A DNA stretch of 26,701 bases from a virus. Each line of letters opens with the position of its first letter. The stretch's first letter is position 1. The position numbers were made by a program, and so were the translations under genes. The notes under the pieces are model-generated. The model did no database searches. It was not told the origin of the DNA and was given only the letters and a program-made list of their open reading frames with translations. Location: IMG/VR virus record IMGVR_UViG_3300032296_003182, positions 1 to 26,701 of that record, one strand, 5' to 3'. Shown here piece by piece: positions 11,423 through 23,081 of this stretch.

Positions 11423-12871
11423 TTAATAACCTTCTTGAATTTTTTCTTTAGTAAGAATTTCCATTTCTTTAAATTGTAATGTCATACGAGTTTTAACAGG
11501 CATACCATCATTATGTGCAACCCAACCTACTTCTGGAGCATAATCTACTTGAACAGTTGTCAACGCACAGGGAGCAAATTTATGTAAATTTTCATTTCTT
11601 TGCTCCAAATACCTGTATTCAATATTAAAAATAGAAGGAACAATAAAATATCTTCCTGTTCCGCTAGAATCAATTTGTGGGGCAGCATGATATCTGAACA
11701 ACCTAATTATATCCCTAACAGTATTTGCTTCTTCTGGACTTTTAGGTGTAAATGTAAAATCAAATTGAAAAGTTCTGAAATCCATGGAAGTGAATAAAAC
11801 TTCCATTTGAGGATTTACCGCCCAGCCATATTGACCTAATAAATATTGCGAAAACCCTTTTCCTGTGATACCGCTTTTTGTTGCCATATCACCACCAATT
11901 TCCAATCCTGCTGCTGGAGTATTTCTAGCAATACTTCGTATAGTTTCCCCTGCACCACCTTTAAACCCTGATTCTGCTGCTTTTGATATATTTTCATATA
12001 ATGAAGTAAAATTTTTAGCTTGTGATATAAATTCATTAGCTAATCCAAAATTACCTAATGCTGTAGTTGCGCTAATATCAGCATAACTAGCATGTTGGTT
12101 CATATTGACGGTATCTGGCATATACAAGTTTATAAACCCTTCTACTTTAGCTGTAGAAGGAGTAAACATAAATTCACCTGTAAACTTTGATGAACCTGAA
12201 TCTTCTAGCGCAAATGTTTTTAATCCATCTGTGGCATCAGTAGCTAATTCATCAGGGGAATTTAAAAAATTTTTCACAGAATCGTATGCATTTGAGATAG
12301 TATCTGCAGAATTAGTTAAAAATTCTCCAACGCTGTTTATTGCCCCTCCTGCACCAGAAATTAAATTTGATGCAGCAGAAAGCCCAACTGTTGCCGCTGT
12401 CACCCCACCAAGTATTGATCCTGATGCTGAGGCAACACCTGCAGCGGAAGTTGCAATACCTGCTACTCCAGCAACTGACCCAATAACTCCTGCAGCAGCA
12501 CCAGTAACGGTGTTTACAGTAGTCAATGCTTGATTAGCAACACTAGCAACTGAACTTACTGTACTAGCAGCTGTGCTAGCTGCATCAGAAACAGCACTAG
12601 CAATACCAGAAAATGTACCTGCCTCCTCTGCAACTTTAGTAGCAACATTACCAACAGAATTTAATGTTGACGCTAAAGAACTAGAAATATCAGATGGAGG
12701 CATAACTGATGCAAGAGAAGAAGCTGGATTTGATTCATAATTTGATTTTTTAGGAACCAATACAGTAAAAGAAATGTAATGACCTTTTCTAGATGATCCA
12801 AGATCACTAGGGTATGATAATATCGGTAAATCATTAGGTGATTTATATAAATCTTGTAATGGGCTTGGCAT
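11423..12871 (-). CDS. 48: gp48-like baseplate tail-tube cap protein
   Basis: This 482-residue protein has a C-terminal half like T4 gp48 (364 residues): MDFRTFQFDFTFTPKSPEEA, VRDIIRLFRYHAAP, FAPCALTTVQVDYAPE and MTLQFKEMEILTKEKI. The T4 counterparts are FTWDLTPRSTEDL, IINIYQYFNYFSYG, FGPCQIQSIRFDKTP and FTLEITMREIITLN. gp48 sits on the hub and starts the tail tube with gp54. Between residues about 50 and 200 lies a long segment made almost wholly of Ala, Ser, Val, Gly and Thr, much more extended than in T4. The gene is the first of the minus-strand operon. A perfect TATAAATA late promoter lies 36 bases before its ATG, but the ribosome site is weak. Confidence 0.82.
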   Translation of the reverse strand: MPSPLQDLYKSPNDLPILSYPSDLGSSRKGHYISFTVLVPKKSNYESNPASSLASVMPPSDISSSLASTLNSVGNVATKVAEEAGTFSGIASAVSDAASTAASTVSSVASVANQALTTVNTVTGAAAGVIGSVAGVAGIATSAAGVASASGSILGGVTAATVGLSAASNLISGAGGAINSVGEFLTNSADTISNAYDSVKNFLNSPDELATDATDGLKTFALEDSGSSKFTGEFMFTPSTAKVEGFINLYMPDTVNMNQHASYADISATTALGNFGLANEFISQAKNFTSLYENISKAAESGFKGGAGETIRSIARNTPAAGLEIGGDMATKSGITGKGFSQYLLGQYGWAVNPQMEVLFTSMDFRTFQFDFTFTPKSPEEANTVRDIIRLFRYHAAPQIDSSGTGRYFIVPSIFNIEYRYLEQRNENLHKFAPCALTTVQVDYAPEVGWVAHNDGMPVKTRMTLQFKEMEILTKEKIQEGY

Positions 12872-12897
12872 AAAGTTTAACCATTTTTTTAATTTTA

Positions 12898-12910
12898 ACT
12901 AAATACTATT
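12898..12910 (+). promoter_or_regulatory. Probable late promoter for the gp4 operon (variant)
   Basis: The plus strand reads ACTAAATACTATT, which agrees with the extended T4 late consensus TATAAATACTATT at 11 of 13 positions. It lies about 30 bases before the gp4 ATG at 12940 and overlaps the minus-strand late promoter. The two first bases differ from the consensus, so strength is uncertain. Confidence 0.5.
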
Positions 12911-12914
12911 TATA
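12907..12914 (-). promoter_or_regulatory. T4-type late promoter for the gp48-to-gp8 operon
   Basis: The minus strand reads TATAAATAGTATTTAG here. TATAAATA is the exact T4 late-promoter core recognised by the gp55 sigma-like factor with gp33 and the sliding clamp. It lies 36 bases before the gp48 ATG, a suitable distance for a short leader, and gp33 is encoded in this same window. Confidence 0.8.
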
Positions 12915-12939
12915 TCAATAATTTGTAATAATTTAGATT

Positions 12940-13383
12940 ATGGCTAGAAATTATAAACAAGGAATATATAAACCGAAAAATCCACAAAAATACAGAGGAA
13001 ATGTAGATAATATAGTTTATCGTTCATCTTGGGAATTGCGTGTATTTAAATGGATGGATGATAACCCCAATATATTAGAATGGGCATCAGAAGAATGTGT
13101 TATCCCCTATAAATCCCCTGTTGATAATAAATTTCATAGATATTTTCCAGATATTTGGGCAAGAATATTAGGGGTTGATGGTAGAACTAAAACTTATTTA
13201 ATTGAAATAAAACCGCACAATCAATCAGTTGAACCAGCAGTAAAAAAGAAAATAACGAAACAATATATAACAGAAGTTTGTACATACGCAATTAACCAAG
13301 CAAAATGGAAAGCTGCCAGAGAATATTGTTTAGATCGTAAATGGGAATTTAAAGTTTTAACAGAAAAAGACTTAGGATTATAA
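12940..13383 (+). CDS. 4: gp4-like head completion protein (PD-(D/E)XK fold)
   Basis: This 147-residue protein is close to T4 gp4 (150 residues), the head completion protein added after DNA packaging. Shared blocks are KPKNPQKYRGNVDNIVYRSS, WELRVFKWMDDNPNILEWAS, SPVDNKFHRYFPDIWARIL, TYLIEIKPHNQ and KKYITEV-like and WEFKVLTEKDLGL segments. PD in YFPD and EIK in LIEIKP form a PD-(D/E)XK nuclease-like signature, which may serve to trim the packaged DNA end; catalysis is not shown for this copy. It is the first gene of the plus-strand late operon, divergent from gp48, and the next gene starts directly at its stop (TAA-ATG). Confidence 0.93.
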   Translation: MARNYKQGIYKPKNPQKYRGNVDNIVYRSSWELRVFKWMDDNPNILEWASEECVIPYKSPVDNKFHRYFPDIWARILGVDGRTKTYLIEIKPHNQSVEPAVKKKITKQYITEVCTYAINQAKWKAAREYCLDRKWEFKVLTEKDLGL

Positions 13384-14004
13384 ATGACAAAGAATGTTGG
13401 ATTAGATCCAAAATTTGATTATAAATTTACCCCAAAATCTGCCACTGAAGCAGTAAAGTGGTTCAAACAGAAAATATTAGAATTGAGGGCAGATCAATCA
13501 AAATTAAATGCAACTGTAAGTAGATTAGGACAAAAACAAATTTTAGAAACATTACCAGATGTTAAAATTTTTGAAACTGGTAGAATGTACTTGTTTAACT
13601 ATGATCCGATTGGGAGAACTTCATTACCATATTACGATACATTCCCGTTAATCTTATTGACTGATATTAAAAATGATGGGTTTTATGGAATAAATTTACA
13701 TTACCTTCCAGTTGAACAAAGAATGGTATTTTTAAGTAACATTGCCCCCCAAAAGGGAGTATATAAAAAAGATAAATTACAAAAATTATATATCAGTTAT
13801 GATAGTATAAAAGATGTTCAAGAATTTCAATTTTTTAAACCTTGTTTTAAAAAATATTTAAAAAATAGAGTACGATCAAAAATAAAAGCAATACCTGTTG
13901 AGGAGTGGGGCTATATTTCTGCTTTGCCTATTGAAACATTTAAAAAGAAAACAAAACAAGAAGTCTGGAAAGAATCTATGGCTACCCAAGATATGACACT
14001 TTAA
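13384..14004 (+). CDS. gp2-like DNA end protector candidate
   Basis: This 206-residue basic protein follows gp4 without a gap. The central block GRMYLFNYDP, LPYYDTFPLILLTD and DGFYGINLHYLPVEQR is one I recall from marine T4-like phage proteins annotated as DNA end protector (gp2), which caps packaged DNA ends against host exonuclease. Genes 2 and 4 are close neighbours in T4, which supports the call. The N-terminus contains a predicted helix (AVKWFKQKILELRADQSKLN) and the C-terminus is rich in Lys, fitting DNA contact. I cannot align it confidently with coliphage T4 gp2, so the functional name is tentative; the conserved-family status is more certain. Confidence 0.5.
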   Translation: MTKNVGLDPKFDYKFTPKSATEAVKWFKQKILELRADQSKLNATVSRLGQKQILETLPDVKIFETGRMYLFNYDPIGRTSLPYYDTFPLILLTDIKNDGFYGINLHYLPVEQRMVFLSNIAPQKGVYKKDKLQKLYISYDSIKDVQEFQFFKPCFKKYLKNRVRSKIKAIPVEEWGYISALPIETFKKKTKQEVWKESMATQDMTL

Positions 14005-14016
14005 AAGGATACAATA

Positions 14017-14817
14017 ATGTCATTTTTAGATACATTGCAAGGATTAATGGGTGGTAATAACCCAAAAACTAATGATACAAAATACGATGAAGCTAAATCT
14101 AATTTATTACAATATGATGTGGGTAGAACTGCATATTTTGATGTTGAATTTTATTTCAACAAATTTAAAGATAATGAGGCATTAAAATATGTGTGCCATT
14201 CTGCAGAACTTCCTGGTGAAGCTACAGCAACAGTTTCGCAAAAAATTTATGGTGTCACAGAAAAACATTCTGTGATGACTGGGTATAATGATATACAATT
14301 AGCATTTTATACTTGGGGATCGCAATACGAAAAATCAAGAATGTTTTTTCAAAATTGGGTAGCATACATAACGGGGAGAGAAGAATCTATAACAAATTCT
14401 TGGAAAGAAACAACCTATAATGTCAGATATAAAAGTGAATATGCGTCAACAATAAAAATAACACATTATGCCATAACTGGGCAACCTCTTGTAGAAGTAA
14501 CATTAATAGATGCATTTCCAATTGCAATTAACCAAGTACCGCTTTCTTGGTCTGCTCAAAATGAAGCTCAATCATTAAATGTTGTATTTGCTTACACCGA
14601 ATATGCTTATAATTTTAAATATGCTGATAATAATGGAGCATATTCTAGAGGACCATTAGGGGAATTATTAGGAACAGCAATTAAAACTGCATCTACAATA
14701 AATACCATTAAAGGTGCAATTGAAAGCGGAAACCCTTTGGCGATGGCATCAGCACTCCCAGGTGTCGGGTTATCAAATTTTACATTATCATCAGGATTAT
14801 CAAAAATAGGATTATAA
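14017..14817 (+). CDS. 54: gp54-like tail-tube initiator protein
   Basis: This 266-residue protein has the tail-tube fold pattern shared by gp19, gp48 and gp54. The blocks YVCHSAELPGEATATVSQ, YNDIQLAFYTWGSQYEKSRM, FFQNWVAYITG, VEVTLIDAFPIAINQVPLSW and LNVVFAYTEYAY parallel T4 gp54 (MPENRLSYETDW, LDPLVISFRMDSEASNYRAM, QDWVNSVQDP, VMFTGCIPISVSAPELSY, TTFDVTFAYRVM). gp54 completes the platform on which the gp19 tube polymerises. Its length is between gp19 (163) and gp54 (320). The C-terminus has a Ser/Gly/Leu tail like that of T4 gp54. A good ribosome site (AAAAGGAT) precedes the ATG. An alternative reading is another gp19-fold tube protein. Confidence 0.72.
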   Translation: MSFLDTLQGLMGGNNPKTNDTKYDEAKSNLLQYDVGRTAYFDVEFYFNKFKDNEALKYVCHSAELPGEATATVSQKIYGVTEKHSVMTGYNDIQLAFYTWGSQYEKSRMFFQNWVAYITGREESITNSWKETTYNVRYKSEYASTIKITHYAITGQPLVEVTLIDAFPIAINQVPLSWSAQNEAQSLNVVFAYTEYAYNFKYADNNGAYSRGPLGELLGTAIKTASTINTIKGAIESGNPLAMASALPGVGLSNFTLSSGLSKIGL

Positions 14818-14821
14818 GATT

Positions 14822-15544
14822 ATGAGTTTTTTACCGAAAATTGATGTGGCAACATATACAATTAATTTACCCGTATCAAAACAAACAGTTAAATTTAGAC
14901 CATACTTAGTTAAAGAACAAAAAATATTAATTATGGCTAAAGAATCAGGAGAAAAAAATACATTAATTGATGCTATTATTCAAGTATTAGAAAATTGTGT
15001 TACAAATGATATTGACATTAAAAATTTACCAATCACCGATGTCGAATATTTGTTTTATACTATCAGAGCAAGATCAGAATCAGAAATTGTCGATTTAAAA
15101 TACAGATGTGAAGCTTTAATTGGAGGAACCTCTTGCGGCAATGTTATGGAACATGGTTTAAATTTAATAACTGATTTAGAAATAATTGATAATGAAATTT
15201 CCCCTAATATTCAAATTAATGAAGATGTTGGGTTAAAATTAAGACACCAAAGATTTGAGATTGATAATTTACAAAATAAAATACCAACACCAGAAGAAAT
15301 TTTAGAAAGTATCGCCAAAAACGTTGAGTTTGTATATGATGAAAATTCATCATATAATGCTAAAGATATACCTATCCAAAAAATAATTGAGTGGTTAGGT
15401 GAGTTACCTGTTGAAAAATTTAAACAAATTGAGGCATTTTTAGAAAATGAACCTAAAATTGTAAAAAAATTACAAATTACATGTAATAAATGCGGTGCGG
15501 TTCATGATATTTTAGTTGAGGATATATTTGATTTTTTTATCTAA
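14822..15544 (+). CDS. 26: gp26-like baseplate hub / assembly protein, possible frameshift donor
   Basis: This 240-residue protein fits the T4 baseplate family (PF12322) to which T4 gp26 (208 residues) belongs. It has the opening ...VKFRPYLVKEQKILIMAKES, a helical VLENCVTNDIDIKNLPITD segment and FYTIRARSESE. Two Cys clusters (YRCEALIGGTSC near residue 100 and ITCNKCGAVH near 222) could bind a metal. Related proteins end in a DFF-type tail, as here (IFDFFI). The last sense codons contain a run of seven T (15532-15538), and the -1 frame is open across it into the following small ORF. gp26 acts in hub assembly; the chaperone-like frameshift arrangement is my inference. Confidence 0.78.
   Translation: MSFLPKIDVATYTINLPVSKQTVKFRPYLVKEQKILIMAKESGEKNTLIDAIIQVLENCVTNDIDIKNLPITDVEYLFYTIRARSESEIVDLKYRCEALIGGTSCGNVMEHGLNLITDLEIIDNEISPNIQINEDVGLKLRHQRFEIDNLQNKIPTPEEILESIAKNVEFVYDENSSYNAKDIPIQKIIEWLGELPVEKFKQIEAFLENEPKIVKKLQITCNKCGAVHDILVEDIFDFFI
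15532..15538 (+). promoter_or_regulatory. Candidate -1 frameshift slippery site (T TTT TTT)
   Basis: In the gp26 frame the codons are GAT TTT TTT ATC TAA, so the heptamer at 15532-15538 fits the X XXY YYZ rule with both codons able to re-pair after a one-base backward slip. The zero frame stops two codons later and the -1 frame continues for 66 codons. Confidence 0.6.
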
Positions 15545-15738
15545 TTCTTGGTAATGTTAAACTTGCAGTTTATTATAAGACAAATTTTGCTATGATGCAA
15601 TATCATGGATATAGTTTAAATGAATTGGAAGCAATGATCCCTTGGGAAAGGGAAATTTATATTGGCCTATTAGTACAATATTTGAGAGATAAAGAAGAAA
15701 AACGAAAACAACAAGAAGCTAAAAGGAATAGTATATAA
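15538..15738 (+). CDS. Small hub-assembly ORF in the -1 frame after gp26 (no good own start)
   Basis: The frame opens at 15532 after a TGA at 15529 and runs to TAA at 15736-15738. Read through a -1 slip at the T7 run it adds 66 residues to gp26: YLILGNVKLAVYYKTNFAMM, then QYHGYSLNELEAMIPWEREI and a charged Lys/Glu helix. The MIPWEREIY block with the preceding NFAMMQYHGYS resembles, from recall, a motif fused to or following gp26-like proteins in other T4-like phages. The only in-frame ATGs (15592, 15595) lie inside that conserved block and have no clear ribosome site, so frameshifting is more likely than separate initiation. The 799-residue gene starts 2 bases after the stop. Confidence 0.7.
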   Translation, partial: YLILGNVKLAVYYKTNFAMMQYHGYSLNELEAMIPWEREIYIGLLVQYLRDKEEKRKQQEAKRNSI

Positions 15739-15740
15739 CA

Positions 15741-18140
15741 ATGGAAATTAAAATACCAGAAGATGCAAAAATAAGTAATACACAAACCTCAGACGACGTT
15801 CCAAATATTGCTGCACTAGAAGCTGAATTTAAAACAAATAAAGATAAATCTGGTCCTGGGTTTATTGTTCCAAAAGATATAGCTCAAGGGGATATTATAA
15901 CAGGAATAGATGCTGTTGGAGAAGGGTTAGCTGAATCTTCTGGATCTCTTGGTTTACCGCCATTAATGATTGGAGCAGCAGCTGCTGGGTTTGGATTAAA
16001 AGGAGCAGCTGCTGGTTTGCGAGCAGCAAAATCACTAAAATCAAGTCCATTCGCTAAAAATGTTAGTGATTTCGCAACTGCAGCAAAACAAAAAGTTAGT
16101 TCTGCTACAGACACAATCGGTACTACTGCAAAAGAAACATATAATTCTGTCAGTGATACACTTGGTGCTATATTTAAAAAATCTCCCATTGATAAAACTA
16201 CTCAACAAACTTCAAAAGAAAAATTTGGGGATATATTTAGACCAAATAAAACTACTCAACAAACTTCAAAAGAAAAATTTGATGAGTTTTTCAAAAATGA
16301 AAAACCATTTAACCCAAAAATAGGAAAACCATTAGGTAAGATACCTACCAAAAAACCAATAAGAAATCCATTTAGAGTTAGCGGAAATGTTGGAGGCAGT
16401 ATTCTAGGAGGATTGGCTGGGTTGGGGGCAAGTTTATTTGGTGGTGGTAATAACAATGATCAAAATAGAAATAGTGGAAATTTATCTAACCTGTCAGCAT
16501 TACCAAATTTATCTGCAGCTTTAACATCAATGCCTTCTGGTGGCGATTCAGGAATGGTTGGGGAATCGCATTTTGGGGGAGGTAGCCTCAATGGATTGAC
16601 AATTATGGAAGCATTGTCAAAAATTTATTCTTTATTAGTTGAATCAAACGATGAATTAAGAAAAATCTCAGGTAATACTTCTAGAATGTTAAAACAATCA
16701 GCAAATGCAGACACAGCATCTGATATAGCATCAGCAAATGCAGGAGCAAGAGCAAATGAAACTGGATATGGGTATTCAGCAATAACAAGATCAACCGATT
16801 CAGAATATTTAAAGCCAGATATTGATGCACCTGAAAACAATACACCAGAAAAAGAAAACAAATCAGGATTATGGTCAAAATTAGCTGGTGTGGTTGGAAG
16901 GGGGGTAGGTTGGACAGCTAAAGCTGCTGGGGTCGGGGTGGGATTAGGAGCAGTAGCAGCATCTGATGCACAAGCCAATATTGGCGTAGATTTGCTAAGC
17001 AGAACTTCAAAATTGATGTCTAGCCTTTCTGGTGATAACCAATACGATAGGTTAAAATCAATAATTAAAGAAGGTGAAAGTAGAGGTAATTATTCTGTAG
17101 TATATGGTGGCGGAAAACCGAAAAAAGAATTGACAGAAATGTCAATTCGTGAAGTGTTAGAATATCAAGAAAAAATGCTTCAAACTAGAGATGAAAACGG
17201 TAAAGCACATAGTCCTGTTGGGGCATATCAAATAATTAGAGACACCTTAAAAGAAAATTACGAATTAGCTGGGTTATCATTAGATGATAAATTTACTCCT
17301 GAAAACCAAGATAAAATTGCAGATGTTCTTATTGCTAAAAGAATGCAGCGTTCTGATGGTTCTGCTGAAGGATTTGCTAAACAATTAGCATTAGAATGGG
17401 CATCATTGGGTGACCCTACACAAGAAAATGGAACAAGAAAACCTATACCGTCAAGTGTGGTCATGGCTGCAATCGCGGGGGTAGAAGATGATGAAACTGC
17501 AATTGAAACGCCATCTACTAATAATCTTGACCATGTCTTAACACCATCTGTTGACAATGCTAAAAAATTTGGGTTTTCTAATGAATCTTCTTTGAAATTA
17601 CCTGAAGGAACTTCGGTACTTGACAATGCAATTAAACCAAATCAAACGGTTAGTAAAGTGTTAAACAATTCTGATAAAACGGTAGCATTAACTAACCAAG
17701 AAAATATAACCGAACCTGGCCTACAATTTGGTGGTAAATATTCCAGAAATCCAAACACAGTTATCTCTCAATCAGAATTGTTTAAACCGCAAGAAATGGG
17801 TGTCGACCCAAAAACAGGAGAATTATTTGTTAAATCGAATACTCCTTCTGTAACGCCTATATTTGATGAGTCAACTAATTATGAGAATTTAAGAGAATCA
17901 ACATTAGGTGCATCAAGTATTATAACAGAAAAACCACAAGATCAATCGGCTATGCAAAGCGTAAATGAAAATCTTACTAAAGTTGCACAATTGGTTGCGT
18001 CTAATCAACAACAGCCAGCTCCGCAACCTATGAGAGCTTCTCCACCAGATGCAGCAGGAAATGCTGGCAGTATAATGTCAGTAAGGAATGAAGATCCAGT
18101 GTTGTTAACACTTACATATGGAAATGTAAAAACGGCATAA
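15741..18140 (+). CDS. Large tail protein with muralytic (lysozyme/transglycosylase-like) domain; tape-measure candidate
   Basis: This 799-residue protein has a Gly/Ala-rich hydrophobic segment at residues 70-95, a linker with an exact 18-residue tandem repeat (TTQQTSKEKF units near 153 and 171), another hydrophobic Gly/Ala stretch near 215-235, and a third near 385-415. Residues about 436-575 look like a cell-wall hydrolase of the lambda R type (GH104-like): IIKEGESRGNYSVVYGGG, with Glu as the likely acid, then SPVGAYQIIRDTLKE, DKFTPENQDKIADVLIAKRM and LALEWASLGDP. The position after gp26 and next to the gp54 group fits the tape measure (T4 gp29, 590 residues) or a hub-associated lysozyme. 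It may replace the lysozyme absent from gp5. Domain call fairly sure, tape-measure role uncertain. Confidence 0.65.
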   Translation: MEIKIPEDAKISNTQTSDDVPNIAALEAEFKTNKDKSGPGFIVPKDIAQGDIITGIDAVGEGLAESSGSLGLPPLMIGAAAAGFGLKGAAAGLRAAKSLKSSPFAKNVSDFATAAKQKVSSATDTIGTTAKETYNSVSDTLGAIFKKSPIDKTTQQTSKEKFGDIFRPNKTTQQTSKEKFDEFFKNEKPFNPKIGKPLGKIPTKKPIRNPFRVSGNVGGSILGGLAGLGASLFGGGNNNDQNRNSGNLSNLSALPNLSAALTSMPSGGDSGMVGESHFGGGSLNGLTIMEALSKIYSLLVESNDELRKISGNTSRMLKQSANADTASDIASANAGARANETGYGYSAITRSTDSEYLKPDIDAPENNTPEKENKSGLWSKLAGVVGRGVGWTAKAAGVGVGLGAVAASDAQANIGVDLLSRTSKLMSSLSGDNQYDRLKSIIKEGESRGNYSVVYGGGKPKKELTEMSIREVLEYQEKMLQTRDENGKAHSPVGAYQIIRDTLKENYELAGLSLDDKFTPENQDKIADVLIAKRMQRSDGSAEGFAKQLALEWASLGDPTQENGTRKPIPSSVVMAAIAGVEDDETAIETPSTNNLDHVLTPSVDNAKKFGFSNESSLKLPEGTSVLDNAIKPNQTVSKVLNNSDKTVALTNQENITEPGLQFGGKYSRNPNTVISQSELFKPQEMGVDPKTGELFVKSNTPSVTPIFDESTNYENLRESTLGASSIITEKPQDQSAMQSVNENLTKVAQLVASNQQQPAPQPMRASPPDAAGNAGSIMSVRNEDPVLLTLTYGNVKTA
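16192..16281 (+). repeat. 54-bp-period tandem repeat inside the 799-residue tail gene
   Basis: A 36-base sequence at 16192-16227 (beginning ATAAAACTACTCAACAAACT) recurs exactly at 16246-16281, giving a period of 54 bases, or 18 codons, in frame. It encodes two KTTQQTSKEKF units in a linker region. Base-perfect identity suggests a recent duplication. Confidence 0.9.
17121..17148 (-). terminator. Antisense intrinsic terminator inside the tail gene
   Basis: Bases 17127-17135 and 17140-17148 are a perfect 9-base inverted repeat (GAATTGACA / TGTCAATTC) with a 4-base loop. Read on the minus strand, the hairpin is followed at once by six T (17126-17121), the layout of a Rho-independent terminator. 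No T run follows on the plus strand. It would stop minus-strand transcripts leaking past the gp32 end. Confidence 0.6.
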
Positions 18141-18145
18141 AAAAA

Positions 18146-18161
18146 GGGAGCCGAAGCTCCC
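18146..18161. terminator. Bidirectional terminator between convergent genes
   Basis: GGGAGC-CGAA-GCTCCC is a perfect 6-base stem with a stable four-base loop, flanked by an A run on the left and TTT on the right. It sits between the stop of the plus-strand tail gene (18140) and the stop of minus-strand gp32 (18171). The A/T flanks allow termination in both directions. Confidence 0.88.
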
Positions 18162-18170
18162 TTTCATATA

Positions 18171-19112
18171 TTAGTCGTCGCCGACTAACTTACTGAAGTA
18201 AGACATATCATCATCTTCTTCATCGTCAATTACTGCAGTAGAAGCAGCAAAAGAAGCAGTTGTTTTCTTTTCAGCAACTGTGCTTTGGATAAATTGTTCA
18301 TCTTCAACTTCATCAAGAGATTTTGCTGTATAATCTTCAGCAGTTTTATACTTAGCGTTTTGATTTGATTGCCCTAGAACTCTTTTTAGACGAGCTTCTA
18401 ATGTTGCATAGTCTTTGAAATTTTTAGGTTCAAGAATTTCTTTTAAAGAAAATTCACTCTTCCAAACTTTTTCTAGTTTATCATCGTCATCAAATAACGC
18501 TGATGGGCTATCAAATTCAGCTAAATCATAATTTTGGTAACCATCTACTTTACGAATTTTTAATTTAAAATTCGCACCTTCCCATAAATCAAATGGATCA
18601 ATAGGTTTATCATCTTCAAATTGTGGGTTCATCGCTTGAGTAATTTTCTCAAAGATTTTTTTACCAAACACATATTTAAATGTTTTACCTTCATTTTCTG
18701 GGTGTTTAGTATCTTTGATTACATAAATATTAGAAACATAATGTAATCTACGTTTTTGTTTTCTGGCTTGTTCTTTATTAGATTCAATACCAGTTTCCCA
18801 TAATTCTGAATTGTATTTACCTAGAGGGTCATCTAGGCCAATTGAAGTTAATGATTTTTCGATATACCAACCACCTGGACCTTGGAAACCGTGATCGTAA
18901 TATTTAACCCATGGTAAACCATCCGATTCAACATCTTGTGGAGGAGTAGGAAGAAAACGAATTACAGCGTAACCGTTACCTGATTTATCAAGTTCACATT
19001 TCCAATATTCATTAGAATCATCATTTTGATTATTAGAAGACATAGATTCAACAGCTTTCGCTAATTTATCTAAATTTGAACCTGATTGTTTTTTTAATTT
19101 ACTAAAATCCAT
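18171..19112 (-). CDS. 32: gp32-like single-stranded DNA binding protein
   Basis: The chosen start is the ATG at 19112, with ribosome site AAAGGTG and the N-terminus MDFSKLKKQSGSNLDKLAK; the open frame extends to 19181, but the extra part is the leader. The 313-residue product has the gp32 layout: basic N-terminal cooperativity region (LAST-like KLKKQSGS), core (GNGYAVIRFLP, YYDHGFQGPGGWYIEKS, NIYVIKDTKHPENEGKTFKY, VFGKKIFEKI, WEGANFKLKI) and an acidic tail ending DDEEDDD...VGDD that recruits replication partners. Of the four zinc ligands of T4 gp32 (His64, Cys77, Cys87, Cys90), only the His in DHGF has a counterpart; the region after WYIEK has no Cys. It follows gp59 and gp33, as in T4. Confidence 0.93.
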   Translation of the reverse strand: MDFSKLKKQSGSNLDKLAKAVESMSSNNQNDDSNEYWKCELDKSGNGYAVIRFLPTPPQDVESDGLPWVKYYDHGFQGPGGWYIEKSLTSIGLDDPLGKYNSELWETGIESNKEQARKQKRRLHYVSNIYVIKDTKHPENEGKTFKYVFGKKIFEKITQAMNPQFEDDKPIDPFDLWEGANFKLKIRKVDGYQNYDLAEFDSPSALFDDDDKLEKVWKSEFSLKEILEPKNFKDYATLEARLKRVLGQSNQNAKYKTAEDYTAKSLDEVEDEQFIQSTVAEKKTTASFAASTAVIDDEEDDDMSYFSKLVGDD

Positions 19113-19821: not shown

Positions 19822-20034
19822 GCGAACAGATGAACTTTTTATTAAACGTAATGCGATAGCTTCTTCTTCCATCTTACTTTTTAAGGCAGGGGAAATTAAA
19901 GATATAATTGAATCAACTTCCAGTTCTTTTTCTTCACAATAACTTACTATCGCATCAACATATTCAAGTTTATGTATATTCACTTTAGTAAAAATTATAT
20001 TAGAGAATTCATGCATTTTATCAAAATTTTCCAT
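19810..20034 (-). CDS. 33: gp33-like late-transcription co-activator
   Basis: This 74-residue protein matches the C-terminal part of T4 gp33 (112 residues): IIFTKVNIHKLEYVDAIVSY with CEEKELEVDSIISLISPALK and EEEAIALRLIKSSSVRLTF against T4 MVEEFGMSYLEATTAFLEEN, SIPETQFAKFIPSGIIEKIQ and SEAIDENLLRPSVV. gp33 bridges the RNA polymerase beta flap and the sliding clamp for late transcription, with the clamp contact in its hydrophobic C-terminus (here VRLTF; T4 ends DFLL). The protein lacks the extra T4 N-terminal part. The gene overlaps the hydrolase stop by one base (TAATG) with no ribosome site, so it is translationally coupled. Its position between the hydrolase and gp59 repeats the T4 order 33-59-32. 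Confidence 0.75.
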   Translation of the reverse strand: MENFDKMHEFSNIIFTKVNIHKLEYVDAIVSYCEEKELEVDSIISLISPALKSKMEEEAIALRLIKSSSVRLTF

Positions 20035-20528
20035 TAAGCACTCTTTTTTGAATAAAAATTAGATTGACCTAGCTTTGCAGCTAATTTATATTCTCTACTC
20101 CATTTATATCTAGAATGAATACTTTTAAAAAATAATACATCTGGACCAAAATTAGGTAAAGAAACTCGTTTATTTAAAATATCATCAGATAAATCTAAAC
20201 TATTTTCCCAGGAATCGCTGCCATATTTTATTTTAGTTTTGCGCGAGCAAACCCAAGAAAATTGACACAATTTTTTACCGTCATCATAATTTATTTGATT
20301 GACGACACCACAAATTGTTTTTGGAAATTTTTTATGATTAGTTCGATTTAAGACTACTTTGGCAACACCCTTTTTACCAGCAATTGGTTCACCTTTTGCT
20401 TCATGATAAATGACTTTAGCCAAGCATATTTTTTCTGATTCTGTATTTACTTGTTTTGCGAAACTCGCTGTAGGTATTATTAAAATTATAATAGCAAGAA
20501 TGATCGCCTTTTTCGTAATTGAATACAT
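20034..20528 (-). CDS. SleB/CwlJ-type cell-wall hydrolase with signal peptide (putative endolysin)
   Basis: The start is the ATG at 20528, directly after a strong AGGAGA ribosome site; the frame reaches 20555 but the extra codons include that site. The 164-residue protein begins with a Sec signal or signal-anchor (MYSITKKAIILAIIILIIP with an ASFA-K boundary). The mature part is a Hydrolase_2 (SleB) domain: CLAKVIYHEAKGEPIAGKKG, VAKVVLNRTNHKKFP, TICGVVNQ and CQFSWVC, with Glu in YHEAKGE the likely catalytic acid. The family cleaves peptidoglycan glycan strands. The role in host lysis is inferred; export by the host Sec system would remove the need for a large-hole holin. It lies upstream of gp33 in one transcript. 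Confidence 0.85.
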   Translation of the reverse strand: MYSITKKAIILAIIILIIPTASFAKQVNTESEKICLAKVIYHEAKGEPIAGKKGVAKVVLNRTNHKKFPKTICGVVNQINYDDGKKLCQFSWVCSRKTKIKYGSDSWENSLDLSDDILNKRVSLPNFGPDVLFFKSIHSRYKWSREYKLAAKLGQSNFYSKKSA

Positions 20529-20644
20529 CTTTGTTTCTCCTTGAGAAATATTCAAATAAACTGTTGCAGAATATTTCTAATTATGATTAGGACTTTTTCT
20601 TTTCCTGAAAAGCTACTAATTGGTTTAAATTAACTCACAAAAAT

Positions 20645-22286: not shown

Positions 22287-23081
22287 ATGTCCAGCACAAA
22301 TACTTATACCGAACAAAAATACTGCACCTACATCACTCATTATTCTGGTAATCTATTACCAGCAAATTATATCGGATCATCAACAATTAATAAAATTAAT
22401 AATGGTTATCGTGGTTCAGTTAAATCTAAAAAATATAAATCAATTTGGGAATTAGAATTAAAAAACAACCCAGAATTATTTTTTACAGAAATTATATCAA
22501 CACACGATACTCGTAGAGAAGCAACTTATAAAGAATTGCAGTTACAACGAACATTTAATGTTGTAAAATCGGATTTATTCATTAACATGGCGTATGCAAT
22601 AAAGAATGGTTGTTTTGGTATGGAAATTGCTGGAGAGAACCACCCAAATTTCGGAAATTGCTGGAGCGATTTACAAAAAAATGAACAATCAGAAAAATTA
22701 AAGCGTTTTTATAAAATAGATACGAATAAAATTGCGCACAAAAATAGATGCAAAACAAGAAAACAAAGAGTTTGGACAGAAGAAGAAAAATTAAAACAAA
22801 AAAACAATAATATGGGGGAAAATAACCCTAATTTTGGGAATAGATGGAAAAAATCAAAAGAACAAATAAAAAATAACGTTGAAGCTTTACAAAAAATTTA
22901 TAAATTAACTGATCCAACTGGAACAATTTTTGTAATAAAAAATATAAAACAATTTAGTGTACAAAATAATTTGAATGTTTATAATTTATATTCGGTGGCT
23001 TCCGGAAAAAAAAGCCACCACAAAAAATGGAAATGTGAGAAATTAGAATTCTCGGGGGATATTGAATTTCCGATCAGATAA
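22287..23081 (+). CDS. GIY-YIG homing endonuclease with NUMOD motifs
   Basis: This 264-residue protein has an N-terminal GIY-YIG nuclease: CTYITHYSG (residues 13-21, GIY-like) and NYIGSS (27-32, YIG), GYRGSVKSKKYKS, and an acidic residue in THDTRREATYKELQLQR. Two NUMOD3 DNA-binding motifs follow (GENHPNFGN at 117-125 and GENNPNFGN at 177-185). A C-terminal NUMOD1/IENR1-like helix-turn-helix ends the chain (TDPTGTIFVIKNIKQFSVQN with SVASGKKSHHKKWKC). This is a free-standing mobile homing endonuclease of the Seg type; I see no intron around it. It is encoded opposite to all its neighbours, has its own late core, and its last 39 bases overlap the end of the gene at 23043. Confidence 0.9.
   Translation: MSSTNTYTEQKYCTYITHYSGNLLPANYIGSSTINKINNGYRGSVKSKKYKSIWELELKNNPELFFTEIISTHDTRREATYKELQLQRTFNVVKSDLFINMAYAIKNGCFGMEIAGENHPNFGNCWSDLQKNEQSEKLKRFYKIDTNKIAHKNRCKTRKQRVWTEEEKLKQKNNNMGENNPNFGNRWKKSKEQIKNNVEALQKIYKLTDPTGTIFVIKNIKQFSVQNNLNVYNLYSVASGKKSHHKKWKCEKLEFSGDIEFPIR

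Follow-up and report, generated by a model that had tools for sequence, protein, structure and literature searches.

The window is the whole of the 26,701-nucleotide stretch analysed, the IMG/VR virus record IMGVR_UViG_3300032296_003182 (26.7 kb), in which profile searches identified T4-like tail, baseplate, and replication genes. The gene for gp26, predicted to be the short form of a hub/tail assembly chaperone, is on the plus strand at positions 14822 to 15544. It encodes 240 amino acids, of which residues 10 to 239 match PF12322 (T4_baseplate, 1.4e-48), and it also matches phrog_150 (4e-50). Upstream, at 14017 to 14817 of the same strand, is the gene for a tail tube-type protein (PF23849 Phage_TTP_2, 5.9e-10; phrog_45, 2e-21). 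Downstream, at 15741 to 18140 and also on the plus strand, is an ORF of 799 amino acids that matches phrog_6126 (virion structural protein, 1.9e-11) and is a tape measure candidate by position only. No sequence match was found between this ORF and T4 gp29; in Cr30 and phiM7, tape-measure families are matched by the ORFs that occupy a comparable position. In G/GT the gene comes after the tail tube gene and before the tape measure gene; the tail tube-type gene upstream agrees with this order, and the ORF downstream is a candidate for the second place.

The 3' end of the gp26 gene is GAT TTT TTT ATC TAA. As the first-pass annotation had it, the seven T at 15532 to 15538 on the plus strand are in the phase for a -1 slip (T TTT TTT in the zero frame), with the gp26 stop codon, 15542 to 15544, being the second codon past the heptamer. 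The overlapping -1 frame opens directly after a TGA at 15529 to 15531 and ends with the stop codon at 15736 to 15738. It provides an extension of 66 residues after the slip (15538 to 15738, plus strand), beginning YLILGNVKLAVYYKTNFAMMQYHGYSLNELEAMIPWEREIY, which joined to gp26 residues 1 to 239 would make a predicted fusion of 305 amino acids. The first ATG, GTG, or TTG of this frame is at 15592, and the earlier claim that the frame is conserved ahead of any start codon was borne out. On the plus strand of the window, which is 30% GC, there are 13 T-runs of at least 7 bases. Such runs alone are therefore common, and what gives the observation its weight is the phase, the position, and the conservation.

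The extension matches phrog_634, "baseplate hub assembly catalyst" (T4 gp51), with an E-value of 1.1e-25 from position 56 of the 121 in the profile, and also matches the end of phrog_150. Judged by these profiles (PF12322, phrog_150, and phrog_634), both parts belong to the T4 gp26/gp51 family. An AlphaFold2 model (pLDDT 86.7) matches predicted T4-like hub chaperones. Against solved structures the model has no significant match; the highest probability among the matches listed is for the HK97 tail assembly chaperone 2ob9 (0.35, E 2.6), a modelled likeness that is suggestive only. The sequence search of solved structures returned no meaningful match.

A total of 111 loci, from 80 viral contigs, isolate genomes, and further contigs, were collected as relatives and grouped into 38 clusters at 80% amino-acid identity. 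One IMG/VR contig from metagenome 3300033571 (L003) is identical to positions 11822 to 18735 of the window, over 6914 bases. A gp51 encoded in the -1 frame relative to gp26 is seen in the 80 viral contigs and in the isolates, namely cyanophages, Vibrio nt-1, Aeromonas ZPAH1, Stenotrophomonas Yut3, Caulobacter Cr30, Sinorhizobium phiM7, and Rhizobium RL2RES. The sequence T TTT TTN is present in phase, 7 to 13 bases ahead of the gp26 stop and with gp51 in the -1 frame, in 34 of the 38 clusters. No single-gene relative with fused frames and without the T-run was found among those collected. Retention of the slippery run together with split frames is what had been predicted to favour frameshifting when this junction was compared between related genomes. 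By codon choice, the chance of T TTT TTN has a mean p of 0.39 per cluster and a product of approximately 1e-15, which overstates the surprise as the clusters share ancestry; at other xFF sites in the same loci, 18 of 179 are T TTT TTN. The last base of the heptamer varies across clusters (T, C, or G) and the second codon of the slip in RL2RES is TTG (Leu). It is therefore the T-run that has been kept, rather than the Phe-Phe pair.

The SD-like sequence GAGG at 15518 to 15521 on the plus strand, with 10 bases between it and the heptamer, is a probable stimulator. Its anti-SD duplex of -5.6 kcal/mol is in the top 4.1% of positions within the gp26 gene. Most relatives have an SD-like stretch at the same place, where the mean anti-SD duplex is -5.4 kcal/mol versus -0.85 elsewhere in the same genes, and in 22 of the 38 clusters it is among the top 5% of positions. 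Of 20 clusters with Glu-Gly at this place, 16 use GAG, where 5.0 would be expected (binomial p 3e-7, for clusters that are not independent), so the SD-like sequence is chosen beyond amino-acid need. A downstream pseudoknot or hairpin was not supported as a general stimulator, with a mean z of -1.24, 12 of the 38 clusters below -2, and +0.39 for the window; downstream RNA structure is absent in the window and is not common to the 38 clusters.

It is conceivable, though improbable, that RNA polymerase slips on the T-run and generates mixed mRNAs, of which some would carry both parts in a single open frame. The homopolymeric site suits this reading, and such slippage would result in the same short and long products as frameshifting. 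However, the run is only six T long, with C or G next, in about half of the clusters, and no cluster has a T-run longer than the heptamer needs. The choice of an SD-like element 10 bases upstream also argues against it, since this is an element that acts on ribosomes.

Selection on the -1 frame was assessed over the codons from the gp26 stop to the first conserved ATG. In this region the mismatches at the three codon positions of the -1 frame are 0.44, 0.33, and 0.61, and the mean BLOSUM score is -0.003 versus -1.13 and -0.91 in the other frames. Substitutions are conservative in the -1 frame only, and it has no stop codons versus 17 and 50 in the others. In 29 of 34 clusters NFA keeps a fixed place, residue 17 counted from the slip, without any change in length. 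These patterns show that protein-level selection acts on the -1 frame starting at the slip site itself, and that the stretch from the gp26 stop to the conserved ATG is therefore translated. In the window that stretch precedes the first start codon, so ribosomes would most simply reach it from gp26.

The records of relatives that were examined either list gp26 and gp51 as separate genes or leave gp51 unannotated, and none annotates a frameshift. That gp51 might indeed be a separate gene, with its own or a coupled start codon, agrees with its annotation as a gene in many public records and with the TAATG or TGATG found at the gp26 stop in some. An ATG or GTG overlapping the gp26 stop in the gp51 frame is present in 8 of the 38 clusters (L085, L088, L089, L090, L092, L093, L094, and L018), the window not being among them. 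An own start in the window was rejected as its first ATG is 48 bases past the gp26 stop and inside the conserved block, with no SD-like stretch before it and with conservation beginning upstream. In addition, a separate gene would leave the slip site unneeded, and in T4 gp51 the extension is joined to a domain resembling gp26. A separate gp51 is thus very unlikely. It is possible that, in the 8 clusters with overlapping start codons, a free gp51 domain is made through coupled initiation besides the fusion. The least probable alternative, a homopolymer error in the assembly that split one open frame, had been raised at the outset and suits the homopolymeric site, but is refuted for the family and very unlikely for this contig, because the same split is at the same place in 34 clusters, isolate genomes included, and because contig L003 is identical to the window across all 6914 bases.

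The preferred reading is a programmed -1 ribosomal frameshift in a T4-type tail (hub) assembly chaperone gene of the lambda G/GT kind, for which the probability is estimated at about 0.92. What was observed directly is the slip site with its phase and its conservation, together with the conservation of the -1 frame at the protein level. Most ribosomes would end at 15542, yielding the 240-amino-acid gp26 as the major product. With tRNA-Phe in both the P and A sites on T TTT TTT, a fraction of the ribosomes would slip back by one base, probably helped by the pairing of GAGG, 10 bases upstream, with 16S rRNA. The ribosomes that slip would make the 305-amino-acid gp26-gp51 fusion as a minor product. 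Both this slippage and the ratio of short to long forms are predictions from the sequence.

The slip site of lambda is G GGA AAG. In Escherichia coli dnaX, an A-run is the slip site, with an internal SD approximately 10 bases upstream and a strong hairpin downstream. The window resembles lambda G/GT in the probable -1 frameshift close to where the short gene ends, the minor long form this would produce, and the location of the gene after the tail tube gene, but the slip is T TTT TTT, not G GGA AAG, and there is no sequence similarity. It resembles dnaX in that the SD-like element is likewise 10 bases upstream of the slip, whereas it has a T-run and no consistent hairpin in place of the A-run and strong hairpin. 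The marks of the frameshift-type (G/GT) chaperone, a slippery site and a -1 extension late in the short gene, are kept together in 34 of the 38 clusters. Such a chaperone would also be expected to bind the tape measure, to be missing from the virion, and to come as two products at a fixed ratio. Xu, Hendrix and Duda reportedly dealt with phage lambda G/GT and similar tail assembly chaperones in 2004. The comparison with lambda G/GT drawn in the first-pass annotation holds up and can be made more specific, in that the extension corresponds to the hub-assembly protein gp51, and that T4 makes its short and long forms from a pair of paralogous genes, 26 and 51. Lambda G/GT and T4 genetics suggest, by analogy, that the short and long pair would serve hub and tape-measure assembly, with the long form acting on the hub or the tape measure as lambda GT and T4 gp51 do.

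T4 offers a natural control: its genes 26 and 51 are paralogues, both belonging to PF12322, that are adjacent and divergent. The two proteins are the same as those predicted for the window, as T4 gp26 stops close to the slip position (EFFELL) and T4 gp51 carries the extension in one frame, but they come from two divergent genes without a slip site rather than from one recoded gene. Among ten T4-type records with a readable gene 26 end, Phe-Phe is TTC TTT in seven and is not retained in three, and a T6 run is present in none. Single-gene forms, T4-type 26, and T4-type 51 are three supported groups in the tree. It is plausible that duplication has replaced frameshifting, although on this unrooted tree the reverse may also hold. 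T4 gp51 is needed for assembly, yet is absent from the particle (PMC3004832).

The principle of a T4-like short and long chaperone made through poly-T frameshifting has already been published, and the window adds a member. According to PMC10885494 and PMC12846349, Vladimirov, Gautam and Davidson (2022, Virology 566:9-15) described the short and long chaperone genes of T4-like phages in both arrangements, with a poly-T -1 signal in the short gene or, in some of these phages, a short gene and a fused long gene instead. As presented in these citing papers, through which the comparison was made, their chaperones have no feature that distinguishes them from the window. That T4 uses a short and a long gene instead of frameshifting is credited there to the same authors and is not a new insight. 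For the cyanophage and related T4-like records examined here, gp26 and gp51 are most likely one recoded gene, and the gp51 starts given are probably not real. The two genes of T4 would then be a duplicated solution to the same need, offering a ready comparison between frameshifting and gene duplication as ways to set the chaperone ratio.

The Ackermannviridae-type loci (L084, L086, L092, L095, and L118) keep the -1 split of gp26 and gp51, but an X XXY YYZ heptamer and an SD-like element are absent at these five junctions. Their common core is xTT TTC (ATT, GTT, or CTT TTC) shortly before the stop, as in the Det7 junction, ATT TTC ATT TAA. Conservation of the -1 frame precedes any start codon in Det7 and MAM1. 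Tentatively, the fusion in the Ackermannviridae may depend on an undescribed recoding signal, in which case three solutions, tandem slip with SD, another slip, and gene duplication, would keep the same short and long pair.

Two other genes in the window are of note. An HNH/homing endonuclease-type gene at 22287 to 23081 (phrog_10820, 5e-30) adjoins a PhoH-like gene, and a small endolysin-like gene at 20034 to 20555 (phrog_938, 1.7e-14) is inside the replication gene block.
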